Shown here: in pieces, positions 606-22,886 of the stretch
How the letters are laid out: every line of letters starts with the position of its first letter
Numbering within the stretch: the stretch's first letter is position 1
From: a virus
Reading direction: 5' to 3' (one strand)
Length of the DNA: 24,464 nucleotides
Virus record (IMG/VR): IMGVR_UViG_3300034103_001915
Span: 1 to 24,464 of that record
The notes under the pieces: generated by a model
Databases searched by the model: none
Told to the model about the DNA's origin: nothing
The model's input: only the letters and a program-made list of their open reading frames with translations
Position numbers and translations under genes: made by a program

Positions 606-1471
606 GTGAAGACGCTTTCTTTTGTCCAGTCAATGTTTCTTGGCCCAGGAACTTCCATGTCCGATCGCCCAATCATCACCGTCCATTGATGCGAGAGCAT
701 CTGGTTGATCGCTTGCGGGTCAACGTAGGCGTATCCACCAACCCCCCAGCGTGACCCCCACGAGTTCTTGAGCAATGCCCACCAACCCTTGGTGGATTGA
801 GAACCCACCTCTGCATCCGGCAGGTAGCCACAGAAAACGACCGCATGCCCGCCACCACCTGGCGACCATCGACGAATGCAGCCTTTGGCATCCGGAGTCA
901 TCGTCGAGTTCCACGCGATTCCGATTTGAACAATCCCGATACCGGACCCGATATACTGCCGCACCTCGTCAGCCGATCGAATTACTGTGTGCGTCTTGAG
1001 CTTGTAGTTCTTTGCGTTCTCGCTCATCGCTGGGGTAATCCAACCCCAACCCGGATAGCTAGACGTGTATGGCCCGATCTGCTCCAAGCAGATTCCTTCC
1101 TTCGCGGTCTTTGTCCCGCCGCTTAGCGTGCTTCCCGAGTCGCCTCGAATGTTGTCGAATTGCTGCGAGCGGAGGTAGGCGTACATTCGCGACAACTGGA
1201 TCACGTTCCCGCCTGTTGCCGTCGCCCAGCAGAACTCCGCACACTCGGTCAAGCTTTGGCCTTGGCACGATCCGATCTGGCCCTGGTTCTCGACCTTGAG
1301 CCATCCCTTTTCCGCGAGTGGACTTTTTCGCGGATCAACCTTGGCTGGCACATCGCCGAACGTCGCGAACAAGCAATCAGTCGAAGACGAAGCGATTCCT
1401 TCGCGGTCCTCGAGTTCGATGCGATAACCGCCAACCGGCAGATCGGGTTCGGAAAAATCTAACTCGCTCAT
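602..1471 (-). CDS. Papain-like C1 family cysteine peptidase
   Basis: This 289-residue protein carries the complete papain catalytic set. The oxyanion Gln63 and nucleophile Cys69 lie in NQGQIGSCQG (Gln six residues before Cys, as in papain). His209 lies in GGGGHAVVFCGY, and Asn236 lies in LLKNSWGSRWG. There is no evident signal peptide, and the N-terminal 55 residues could be a short propeptide-like region. C1 peptidases cleave peptide bonds, and their presence in a phage late operon is uncommon. The gene follows two overlapping membrane/secreted ORFs, starts in an ATGA overlap with one of them, and has GGAGG about 11 nt upstream. Possible roles are lytic endopeptidase, virion maturation protease or receptor degradation. 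The fold is secure, but the role is inferred. Confidence 0.9.
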   Translation of the reverse strand: MSELDFSEPDLPVGGYRIELEDREGIASSSTDCLFATFGDVPAKVDPRKSPLAEKGWLKVENQGQIGSCQGQSLTECAEFCWATATGGNVIQLSRMYAYLRSQQFDNIRGDSGSTLSGGTKTAKEGICLEQIGPYTSSYPGWGWITPAMSENAKNYKLKTHTVIRSADEVRQYIGSGIGIVQIGIAWNSTMTPDAKGCIRRWSPGGGGHAVVFCGYLPDAEVGSQSTKGWWALLKNSWGSRWGVGGYAYVDPQAINQMLSHQWTVMIGRSDMEVPGPRNIDWTKESVFT

Positions 1472-1761
1472 CGACCGATCAGCCTCCGCAGTGCCGATCG
1501 CACTGGTTTCCTCACCGCAGTTTTCCCCGTACTTTTCCCCGTACTTTCCCCAGACACCGATTCCGATTCCGTAACAAAATCTGGTGCTGTTTCGTTACGA
1601 ACTGGAGTTACGCATTTGCCGTTCACGCAATCACTGGAAACCGTTGGCAACCGATTTGAGAAACGTAGTGACGGCACCTCGATTGCCGTCGTCGAATTCG
1701 GTAGGAATCCGATCATCAAGAAGGTTGCTGAGATCAACACTAGCCGCACTACGAACGTCAT
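1468..1761 (-). CDS. Small secreted protein with signal peptide
   Basis: The start is set at the ATG at 1761, where AAGGAGAG lies about 7 nt upstream, giving 97 residues. The open frame extends further upstream without a comparable ribosome site. Residues 1-26 (MTFVVRLVLISATFLM then GFLPNSTTA) look like a signal peptide, with probable cleavage near TTA|IE and no lipobox. The mature part has a Cys-x5-Cys loop (DCVNGKC) and a Ser/Thr/Lys tail (ESTGKSTGK) encoded by a 12-bp tandem repeat at 1521-1551. The first 131 nt overlap the 3' end of the upstream gene in another frame, an arrangement like embedded spanin genes. The last 4 nt overlap the peptidase start. The function is unknown. Confidence 0.6.
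   Translation of the reverse strand: MTFVVRLVLISATFLMIGFLPNSTTAIEVPSLRFSNRLPTVSSDCVNGKCVTPVRNETAPDFVTESESVSGESTGKSTGKTAVRKPVRSALRRLIGR
1521..1551. repeat. 12-bp tandem repeat, about 2.6 copies
   Basis: The unit TTTTCCCCGTAC occurs at 1521-1532 and 1533-1544, followed by a partial copy TTTCCCC. It lies inside the small secreted protein gene and encodes the repeated STGK segment of its C-terminal tail, so copy number may vary by slippage. Confidence 0.7.
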
Positions 1762-19835: not shown

Positions 19836-20119
19836 TTTGTATTCCCCTTCAATACTGTGTTAAGTGTCCATTCGGCCACCGCCACGCTATCAATAACAGC
19901 CACGTAAAAGCCGAGCTTCCGAAGCCGTTCGATCCATTCCTCTTGGGCCGGACGAAGCTTCCCGCCGGGTGCCTTAAATTCGATGAAGAACATCCCTCGA
20001 GGTGTTAGTACCGTTCGATCTGGAAAGCCGTTTTTGCCATCGATGCGAAGCTTTAGGGCGTAACACCCTTTGGACTCGGCATAGGCCACGAAGGCCTTTT
20101 CAATGCCGGCTTCCGTCAT
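19832..20119 (-). CDS. VRR-NUC domain nuclease
   Basis: The 95-residue protein is a stand-alone VRR-NUC nuclease. Its PD-(D/E)xK centre is GFPDRTV (Pro33-Asp34), then FFIEFKAPGG (Glu47, Lys49), followed by the conserved KLRPAQEEW (Gln59). The N-terminal MTEAGIEKAFVAYAESKGC helix is typical of the family. Such phage proteins cut branched DNA. The start overlaps the polymerase stop as ATGA, and its own stop overlaps the SNF2-helicase start as GTGA, so polymerase, nuclease and helicase form one coupled unit. Confidence 0.93.
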   Translation of the reverse strand: MTEAGIEKAFVAYAESKGCYALKLRIDGKNGFPDRTVLTPRGMFFIEFKAPGGKLRPAQEEWIERLRKLGFYVAVIDSVAVAEWTLNTVLKGNTK

Positions 20120-22230
20120 TTCCGATACCTTTCCGCAACAAAACCTTCAACCGCAATCGGGCAACCACGCCCCCACGTCGGTACGGCACTCATCAGCATT
20201 TCAAACTCACTTAAATGCCACTCGGGTTGGTCGGGCACCTCGCACAAAATTTCATCGTGGATAGTCGCAATGATCGGGTATCCACTGGCTTCGACTCGGA
20301 GCATCGCTTCGGCCAAGAAGTCCCGAGCCACCGCTTGAGTCACGTTCTCTACAAGTTTTCCACCGTATGTCCTGGTGGGTGACCATTTCCGTGTTGTGCT
20401 ATCGACCGCCATGTATTCGATCTGGTCGATGTAAATGGGATCCATTCGCCCTAGCTCCATACGCAAAAGGCCTGACGCTGAAGCTGCCACCCGCGTTGGC
20501 ACTATGCATTCTTCAAAAAAAGTCCCATTGTGTTCACCTACTTCGATCCCCATGTCCTCAAGTCGGGTCCGCTCTTCGGGAGGGCCGTAGATGGTTCCTG
20601 TGTATCCGTCCGACCAAGGGGCTTGCACTTGCACAAGCTTTGGAGTTCGATAGTGAAGCTTTCGTCCACTCGGCAATTGGATGCGAAGCCAATCTTTCGA
20701 GCTTGTCACTTCAAGGAACCCAACTCTGTGGGGTTCCCCGCTGCGAATCGCACCGATACACGCTGTATTTAGGTTTGACCAAAAATTCTTGATCGATGGG
20801 TTGGTTTGCCGGTATGTCTTAACCACCAGCTTGGCCATCTGCATGTCCAACGTAACCTTGGCCATGATCGCGCAAGCATCGCGGAACGATTGAGCCCCCA
20901 TGCCATAGCCAAGGCCAAGGATAGCCGTCTTGCCGACGTGCCGTTGGACCTTGGTAACGTCGCTGACGTCCACCGAATAGATTTTGGCCGCCATGACCTT
21001 GTAGACGTCACCGCCACCGGCAAAGGTGTCAAGTAGCTCTTGCTCTCCCGCCAGCCAAGCAAGAACCCGGGCTTCGATAGCCGCAAAGTCACAAGCCAAA
21101 AGCTTATTTCCCTTCTCAGCCCGAATGAACGAACGTAGCGAACTGCTCAAGGCCGCCATTGGCGACCCGAACAAGGGCCCAAAGACTTTGGGATCCCGCC
21201 CCGCTATGAGCCGGTGAACCAACTCGATTTCCTTGGGCGTCAATGTCCCTCGGGGGAAGTTCTGGATCTGGATCCCAGCCCCAGCCCATCGCCCCGTGGC
21301 CGCCCCGTGGTAGACCAAGTTACCCCGTACTCTCCCATCCGTTTCGCATCGCGCCAAAATGCTTTTTAGCTTCGCCGTCGATGCCAAGGCCGTGTCTTGT
21401 CGAATCTGAAGCACTTCCAACACGTCTTCGGGAAGCTCCTTGGTCATCCACTCCCGAACCGTCTCCGCCGTCAAGTCAGGCACCACCTTTCCGGTTCGGT
21501 CAAAGATCCACCGCCGCATGGCCTCCACTTGCTTCGGTGTCGTTACACTTCCGCCTGTAAGCTTGGCAAGCCTGCGTTCGGATTGTGCGTAATGCTCACT
21601 TAGCACCGCCAAAGCATCTCGGACCCCGTGTACGTCGACCGGTATCCCCCGAAGGTTAATCCGCTGGTCCAGCTTCCATAGCTCCAACTCTCGCTTCTCT
21701 AGCCCGGGTATCGCCTTGCTCAAAGCGACTTCGGCGCGTACGTCCTGCTTGCAATACTCGTAGAGCTTCAAGAGTCGGTGACGGTCGTTGTCAAAGTGAC
21801 CCGATGAAAGCGGCTTGCAAAGCCTGAGCATGACCTTTCGTCCCTCGGCGTCTTTCTTGATCGGTAGGCCAAGGGCTGCCGCTGCGTCGGCCAAGGATCT
21901 TGGAAGCCCAAGAGCCGAACACGCCGCTAAAGTGCATCGCCATTGGCATTCAGGAACGTCCGGCCAACCGAAGCTTTCGTGGCATATCCAACGCCATATC
22001 TGACGCTCAAAGCCAGCATTGTGAGCCTCGATCAATTCGCCCATCTGGATGGAGATCAAGAGGTCTTTGGGGGGCTCATCACCCGGTACCCAAAAGCCCA
22101 TGTCGTGCTTGGGACTACCATCCCAATAGGCCAAACAAAGGATTTCGGTAGAAGGATCCCTCGCGTAGACTCCTGCACCGCAATCCGATAGGTCCACCCT
22201 GGATCGCGTTTCGAAGTCAATCGTGATCAT
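20116..22230 (-). CDS. Phage family A DNA polymerase with 3'-5' exonuclease
   Basis: The start is the ATG at 22230, 6 nt after AAAGG, giving 704 residues. The frame remains open to 22299, but that part runs into the tRNA-like element. The exonuclease domain has DFE (Asp5, Glu7), HNAGFE (70-75) and YCKQDVRAE (159-167). The polymerase domain has motif A ACDFAAIEARV (Asp381), motif B RHVGKTAILGLGYG (Arg430, Lys434, Leu438, Tyr442) and motif C HDE (658-660). Leu438 stands where E. coli Pol I has Phe762. A region of about 70 residues before YMAVD (533-605) looks longer than usual. It copies phage DNA together with the SSB, nuclease and helicases around it. Confidence 0.95.
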   Translation of the reverse strand: MITIDFETRSRVDLSDCGAGVYARDPSTEILCLAYWDGSPKHDMGFWVPGDEPPKDLLISIQMGELIEAHNAGFERQIWRWICHESFGWPDVPECQWRCTLAACSALGLPRSLADAAAALGLPIKKDAEGRKVMLRLCKPLSSGHFDNDRHRLLKLYEYCKQDVRAEVALSKAIPGLEKRELELWKLDQRINLRGIPVDVHGVRDALAVLSEHYAQSERRLAKLTGGSVTTPKQVEAMRRWIFDRTGKVVPDLTAETVREWMTKELPEDVLEVLQIRQDTALASTAKLKSILARCETDGRVRGNLVYHGAATGRWAGAGIQIQNFPRGTLTPKEIELVHRLIAGRDPKVFGPLFGSPMAALSSSLRSFIRAEKGNKLLACDFAAIEARVLAWLAGEQELLDTFAGGGDVYKVMAAKIYSVDVSDVTKVQRHVGKTAILGLGYGMGAQSFRDACAIMAKVTLDMQMAKLVVKTYRQTNPSIKNFWSNLNTACIGAIRSGEPHRVGFLEVTSSKDWLRIQLPSGRKLHYRTPKLVQVQAPWSDGYTGTIYGPPEERTRLEDMGIEVGEHNGTFFEECIVPTRVAASASGLLRMELGRMDPIYIDQIEYMAVDSTTRKWSPTRTYGGKLVENVTQAVARDFLAEAMLRVEASGYPIIATIHDEILCEVPDQPEWHLSEFEMLMSAVPTWGRGCPIAVEGFVAERYRK

Positions 22231-22250
22231 GTGCATCCTTTCAAAGAAAA

Positions 22251-22311
22251 GGACCGTTGCGGGAATCGAACCCGGTGGGCTATCGCCCACGGCCACCACT
22301 GACCCCGGTCC
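22251..22311 (-). ncRNA. tRNA-like element, truncated, without a usable anticodon
   Basis: Read on the minus strand, the 61-nt sequence has a 6-bp acceptor-like stem (GGACCG/CGGTCC at its two ends). It has a D-arm-like hairpin (GGTC-AGTGGT-GGCC), a GTGGG/CCCAC stem with a 6-nt loop, and a canonical T-arm (CGGG-TTCGATT-CCCG). The variable loop is missing, the anticodon loop is short without the usual U33, and no CCA follows (TTTTC comes next). It begins 5 nt after the SSB stop and ends about 14 nt before the polymerase ribosome site. It may be a decayed tRNA, an RNase P/Z processing signal or an RNA decoy. Confidence 0.6.
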
Positions 22312-22316
22312 TGCGA

Positions 22317-22886
22317 CTAGCCGAAGACGTCAACGTCAAAGCTTGTGTCACCGAAGGAATCAGCGTCGACTTGAACCGTAGCAAATTCCTTGTCAGCCGC
22401 TTGGCGGTTCCCGAAGCCTTCTCCGTCTCGCACTTTCCACACGTTGTTCAGCGCGAAAGAAACGCCCTTGTTTCCCGAGATGTCATAGGCAAAAGCTGTC
22501 ACGCTACAAATCACGTAGCAACCGCCGTAGACGTCGCTTTCGTTGACGCATGGCATTCGATCGGGGCCGATAACCACGCCGGGCCGATCCTTCGATCGGG
22601 CCCCAATGAAGATGGAACCTTCGTAGCCGTCTTTCCCGTCTCGATCGGTGTCACCGTATCGAAAGGGGCTCTTCAAGTTCTTGGGAATGTTCGATCCCCA
22701 CTTGGCCACCGCCGCTTGATTGACCGCCTTCTTCAACTCCGAAAGGTCCGCATCCTTCTTGAAGATCAATTCACACTGATACTTGGCCTCTCCACCATCG
22801 GCCATCGGCTTCGATGGCTTAAAGAGATACGGATAGCTCAAGCGGGCAATAGGCGTTACAACTCGGGTAGATACAACAGTCGACAT
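22317..22886 (-). CDS. DUF2815-type single-stranded DNA-binding protein
   Basis: The start is the ATG at 22886, with GGAG 7 nt upstream, giving 189 residues. The open frame to 22955 overlaps the nuclease gene and is unlikely. The pattern matches the DUF2815 SSB family: VTPIARLSYPYLFKPSKP near the start, KYQCELIFKKDADLSELKKA, then FRYGDTDRDGKDGYEGSIFI, VYGGCYVICSVTAFAYD, and NKGVSFALNNVWKVRDGEGF. An acidic tail ends FDVDVFG, as in phage SSBs that recruit partners through an acidic C-terminus. It should coat single-stranded DNA during replication. It lies between the DUF2800 nuclease and the polymerase, the usual order. Confidence 0.9.
   Translation of the reverse strand: MSTVVSTRVVTPIARLSYPYLFKPSKPMADGGEAKYQCELIFKKDADLSELKKAVNQAAVAKWGSNIPKNLKSPFRYGDTDRDGKDGYEGSIFIGARSKDRPGVVIGPDRMPCVNESDVYGGCYVICSVTAFAYDISGNKGVSFALNNVWKVRDGEGFGNRQAADKEFATVQVDADSFGDTSFDVDVFG

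Follow-up and report, generated by a model that had tools for sequence, protein, structure and literature searches.

The 24,464-base IMG/VR virus record analysed here (the window) comes from an uncultured virus that is probably a bacteriophage. Its minus strand carries a gene for a single-stranded DNA-binding protein (SSB; PF10991, phrog_112; 22317-22886), followed by a gene for a family A DNA polymerase (PF00476, phrog_17; 20116-22230). Between the two genes, at 22311-22251 on the minus strand, lies a 61-nt anticodon-less cloverleaf; the SSB stop codon (TAG, 22319-22317) is 5 nt upstream of its start, and the polymerase ATG (22230) is 20 nt downstream of its end. An earlier note, which had reported a tRNA-like element at this place, is confirmed. 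The polymerase Shine-Dalgarno, AAAGGA (22236-22241, minus strand), recognized by its sequence and its spacing to the ATG, follows the element. Scans of the surroundings found no promoter within the SSB-polymerase gap and no intrinsic terminator (a GC hairpin with a T-run directly behind it) in 22000-22600.

Read 5' to 3' on the minus strand, the element opens with the acceptor strand GGACCG (22306-22311), a single G and a D-arm, GGTC-AGTGGT-GGCC (22291-22304), in which A14, R15 (as G15) and G18G19 can be assigned. A closed arm, GTGGGC-GATA-GCCCAC (22275-22290), then takes the place of the anticodon arm and, in the RNAfold structure, forms a 6-bp stem with the 4-nt loop GATA where a tRNA would have a usable 7-nt anticodon loop. 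The T-arm, CGGG-TTCGATT-CCCG (22260-22274), contains the only T-box in the window, of canonical form, and joins without a variable loop; its 4-bp stem is separated by three unpaired nucleotides (CAA) from the 3' acceptor strand CGGTCC (22251-22256), which completes a 6-bp acceptor stem and is followed by TTTT in the DNA rather than by CCA. The D-loop AGTGGT and T-loop TTCGATT suggest that both partners of a tRNA elbow are present. The four-way cloverleaf is the minimum free energy (MFE) structure of the element (-33.4 kcal/mol), with a z-score of -2.7 to -2.9, and was matched in energy by 6/200 and 10/1000 dinucleotide shuffles.

The acceptor-, D- and T-arm-like parts that the earlier note had read from these 61 nt are borne out by the RNAfold cloverleaf, and the lack of a variable loop, usable anticodon and CCA holds in both sequence and fold; the canonical D-loop positions are an addition, as is a competing pairing between the acceptor 3' strand and the Shine-Dalgarno that is discussed below. 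Standard models do not recognize the element as a tRNA. ARAGORN made no call for it, and no Rfam family matched at its gathering score anywhere in the window. When 351 bp were searched by E-value, tRNA-Sec (RF01852) was the top Rfam match, with ends exactly at 22311-22251 and a score of 25.7 bits (threshold 47; E 0.0049); no riboswitch family appeared among matches up to E 10. The element shares with canonical tRNAs (RF00005, RF01852) the cloverleaf, the D-loop G18G19, the T-loop TTCGA and an acceptor stem, and differs from them in its length, its short acceptor and the missing decoding parts.

Conservation in a close relative

The only close relative found, L002 (IMGVR 3300005525_000955), encodes a polymerase and an SSB that are 83% and 89% identical in amino acids to those of the window. 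In each gene about 43% of the four-fold degenerate sites differ (35/80 and 124/289), whereas 58 of the 61 bases of the element are identical; if the element changed at the four-fold rate, three or fewer differences among its 61 bases would occur with a probability of about 2e-11. The three changes comprise a U-G pair of the D-stem that becomes C-G and two substitutions in loops, one of them G to A in the loop of the closed arm, whose stem is unchanged. No pair is broken, the acceptor 5' strand is identical, and the putative elbow-forming D-loop GG and T-loop TTCRA are both kept. This pattern indicates that the element is under purifying selection at the RNA level, and it is incompatible with a neutral relic of a tRNA, as the earlier note had allowed. 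The same note had named missing conservation or stem covariation in related phages as grounds for refutation; the element is conserved, and its covariation amounts to one pair-preserving change within a stem, seen against a single close relative.

The polymerase reading frame is open upstream across the element (22299-22231, minus strand), with a GTG at its start in the window and an ATG in L002, making a 23-residue N-terminal extension possible. We considered and rejected such a coding extension (a 727-aa ORF from the GTG at 22299). Although L002 also has this frame open, reading the extension in frame shows 0/12 four-fold sites changed inside the element, which places the constraint at the RNA or nucleotide level. 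Elsewhere in L002, at about 380-450 on the plus strand, we noted the 3' half of a tRNA-Asp, from anticodon loop to discriminator, which is probably a phage attachment site; tRNA 3' halves are also present in L005, L006 and L020.

tRNAs, tRNA-like structures and terminators in the slot

We scanned IMG/VR for a T-box (GGTTCRANYCC) lying 15-75 nt before the polymerase motif IDFETR, and found 15 loci; the sense control, a scrambled box, matched none. Six of these belong to one lineage with a real tRNA-Gly; in this lineage (L065, L069, L071, L076, L078, L081) a complete tRNA-Gly(TCC) stands directly before the DNA polymerase. One locus is a tRNA-Thr before a spurious motif match (L066), another has a polymerase that we could not confirm (L131), and the remaining seven, L002 among them, are separate tRNA-like structures. 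Judged by sequence and predicted fold, there are thus at least six further unrelated phages with tRNA-like, mostly non-decoding or truncated elements in this slot (L070, L075, L079, L080, L082, L009). The L070 element has 57 nt and no anticodon arm, that of L075 has 63 nt and an 8-bp acceptor, and that of L079, also of 63 nt, is called as tRNA-Arg by ARAGORN. In L080, the slot between an SSB-like gene and the DNA polymerase holds at 577-657 the tRNA-like domain of a tmRNA lacking the mRNA-like part (RF00023: 44 bits, 3 short of the threshold of 47; E 9e-17). This is the likeness to tmRNA in the set: the window element is not a tmRNA, and L080 has no tag-coding part. The acceptor and T-stem together span about 12-13 bp in L070, L075, L079 and L080; the elements of L082 and L009 are more divergent, the structures of L009 and L054 are weaker than the others, and L077 and L097 are tRNA-like but less clear. 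Across these phages the acceptor, the T-arm and usually the D-arm are kept, and the decoding arm is lost.

The element usually begins 4-12 nt behind the upstream stop codon. The element follows the SSB stop after 9 nt in L070 and 12 nt in L075, as does the real tRNA of L304 after 10 nt; in L079 and L009 a small ORF stands behind the SSB gene and the element begins 8 and 4 nt after it, and in L082 it begins 9 nt after an unassigned ORF. Larger gaps from the upstream stop occur in L080 (40 nt) and L326 (85 nt).

Real tRNAs occupy the slot in L304, L395, L065 and L117. L304 has a complete tRNA-Thr there and a polymerase 54% identical to that of L070, and L084 keeps an acceptor/T-arm hairpin where its relatives L117 and L126 have a tRNA-Leu. 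The planctomycete genome L395 carries a complete tRNA-Ile(AAT) directly after its SSB gene (1400-1472, minus strand), in the order exonuclease-SSB-tRNA-Ile-small ORF-polymerase; the exonuclease-SSB-polymerase order is that of the window, and the SSBs are 44% identical. Judging by this locus, phages resembling the window may have planctomycete hosts. At L396, another planctomycete SSB locus, no T-box lies behind the SSB gene. Since relatives carry real tRNAs in the slot, a canonical tRNA is the probable ancestor, and the element is likely to descend from one.

To search on structure, we used a finder for a T-arm joined to an acceptor of at least 6 bp, applied to both strands of 885 kb around polymerase relatives. 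It returned six structures that ARAGORN does not call, four of them within 180 nt before the polymerase and all in sense (P about 6e-7), a figure to be read with the facts that the finder was written after the window had been seen, that the window's relative is among the four and that the second set of loci was fetched using polymerases of element-bearing phages. The background in Markov-shuffled sequence was 0.56 per Mb per strand. The count leaves out the many odd tRNAs, not called by ARAGORN, in the tRNA arrays of large phages; the tRNA-rich regions of L086, L150 and L178 contain many missed T-arm/acceptor structures, some of unusual length. A strict structure pattern matched only L002, and a broader pattern run on genome contigs gave no polymerase neighbour among the matches listed. 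By blastn, the element has no homologue in isolated phages, and none of 12 INPHARED regions surrounding related polymerases contained an anticodon-less element; they had hairpins, a distant tRNA-Pro (Achromobacter phage AMA2) or nothing.

The slot is also enriched in intrinsic terminators, which occupy it in 10 of 85 polymerase-locus clusters, compared with 1.4% of random windows (9-fold, P 1.3e-6). A tRNA or tRNA-like structure is present there in 5 other clusters, and the majority contain neither. Together, these counts suggest that the slot is a frequent site of RNA boundaries, the tRNA-like structure being one type among them.

Candidate functions in the SSB-polymerase transcript

Punctuation of transcripts by tRNAs is best known from mitochondria, where, as proposed here, a tRNA structure between coding sequences serves as a cut mark and the loss of arms is tolerated; the present case differs in being a single non-decoding element at one junction of a bacteriophage, with putative processing. 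Rather than a broken tRNA gene, the element is probably a signal in the mRNA, for control or for cutting. Our preferred, tentative reading is that it is a cis-acting, domesticated, non-decoding tRNA that separates the SSB and polymerase messages; we infer the cleavage, the enzymes and the effect on expression. The cloverleaf would present its acceptor/T-arm stack and D/T elbow to host RNase P, whose cut at the 5' end of the element would split the SSB message from the polymerase message. A possible second cut by RNase Z, at the U-rich 3' end, would also detach the strand able to hide the polymerase Shine-Dalgarno. The position close behind the upstream stop codon invites the speculation that terminating ribosomes influence how the element folds.

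RNase P docks on the stacked T-arm and acceptor and gauges a set distance from the elbow (PMC4919913). Its substrates include model hairpins made of an acceptor and a T-arm, the M3 and C4 RNAs of phages, and polycistronic mRNAs (PMC11143913). These known substrates, together with the retained acceptor and T-arm, make punctuation by RNase P the most likely function. Of the three readings in the earlier note, an RNase P/Z signal is by analogy the best fit to this mostly kept acceptor and T-arm and lost anticodon arm, while the neutral relic falls. The sites in M3 RNA, P1/P7 C4 RNA, T4 gene 32 mRNA and the his operon (PMC11143913) likewise have a tRNA-like or acceptor/T-arm-like structure within a phage or operon transcript; cleavage of the present element is putative by comparison, and a fixed placement between SSB and PolA was not found in the papers searched. 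The computed support comprises the fold, selection at the RNA level, recurrence of the slot in unrelated phages and the enrichment of terminators in the slot elsewhere. Against it stand the lack of a 3' CCA, a feature that favours bacterial RNase P and aids the E. coli enzyme (PMC5723415) and in whose place the RNA has UUUU; an imperfect acceptor of 6 bp with CAA unpaired before the T-stem; an acceptor probability that falls to 0.0-0.1 when the window is folded with longer flanks; and the majority of relatives, which have neither terminator nor tRNA-like element.

The main rival to punctuation is a translational switch like that of the yjdF riboswitch. The last bases of the acceptor 3' strand can instead enter a predicted hairpin, GTCCTTTT-CTTT-GAAAGGAT (22235-22254, minus strand), which is incompatible with a full acceptor stem and would mask the polymerase Shine-Dalgarno. 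The tRNA-like fold would then free the Shine-Dalgarno, the alternative would pair it with the acceptor 3' strand and U-tract, and the choice would fall to ribosomes ending SSB translation 5 nt upstream or to a bound factor. The hairpin has 8 bp, is expected by chance in 0.2-1% of cases and is kept in L002, where a G-U pair becomes G-C alongside two loop changes. The two mutually exclusive folds are predicted to be close in energy in the window (-34.6 versus -30.9 kcal/mol) and in L002 (-35.7 versus -34.4 kcal/mol), and with longer flanks the hidden Shine-Dalgarno dominates the predictions, which vary with flank length and leave tertiary elbow contacts outside the model. As precedent, the tRNA-like fold of yjdF competes with Shine-Dalgarno pairing, and translation rises 2- to 6-fold when tRNAs are placed upstream (PMC9142559). 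Both systems share that competition and conserved D- and T-loop equivalents; however, the element has no purine-rich ligand junction and no known ligand, and the Shine-Dalgarno partner is its acceptor 3' strand, as opposed to the T-arm in yjdF. Furthermore, by eye, no Shine-Dalgarno lies between element and start codon in L075, L082, L304 or L009, so a switch is not the function common to these elements, and we consider it rather unlikely for the window.

We regard as improbable that the stable tRNA-like structure and its U-tract serve the SSB message as a structural barrier at its 3' end, weakly terminating transcription or stopping exonucleases in place of the hairpin terminators of relatives. 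Terminator enrichment in the slot speaks for it, as do T-runs after the acceptor in the window, L002, L075 and L082, but L070, L304, L079, L080 and L009 have no T-run, the terminator scan found none at the site, and a barrier leaves the retention of canonical D- and T-loops unexplained. Still less probable is a free small RNA acting in trans, as a decoy for a tRNA-binding protein or nuclease or as a replication primer: an RNA with a tRNA-like body and elbow features could persist after excision, and some phages have real tRNAs in the slot, but the element has neither anticodon nor CCA, and the constant position between SSB and polymerase across unrelated phages, with diverse sequences and always in sense in the two-strand scan, favours a role in cis. 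A functionless, decaying tRNA is hardly credible, despite the tRNAs of L304 and L395 in the same slot, given 58/61 bases kept against 43% four-fold divergence and only structure-preserving changes.

Proposed domestication of tRNAs by phages

Each part of the element is of a known kind; what may be new is the recurrent domestication of tRNAs in phage replication operons, and we found no report of a tRNA-like element at the SSB-polymerase junction in the open-access literature, which our search covered incompletely. With moderate confidence we propose that phages have repeatedly domesticated tRNAs, and once the tRNA-like domain of a tmRNA, stripping the decoding parts and keeping acceptor, elbow and T-arm, to form a general class of cis elements between SSB and polymerase. 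By cleaving the mRNA, by attracting or obstructing ribosomes, or in both ways, such an element would control how much SSB is made relative to polymerase. If so, tRNA punctuation would operate inside phage replication operons too, tRNA-like debris in phage genomes may often be regulatory, and tRNA finders that require an anticodon would be missing a functional class.
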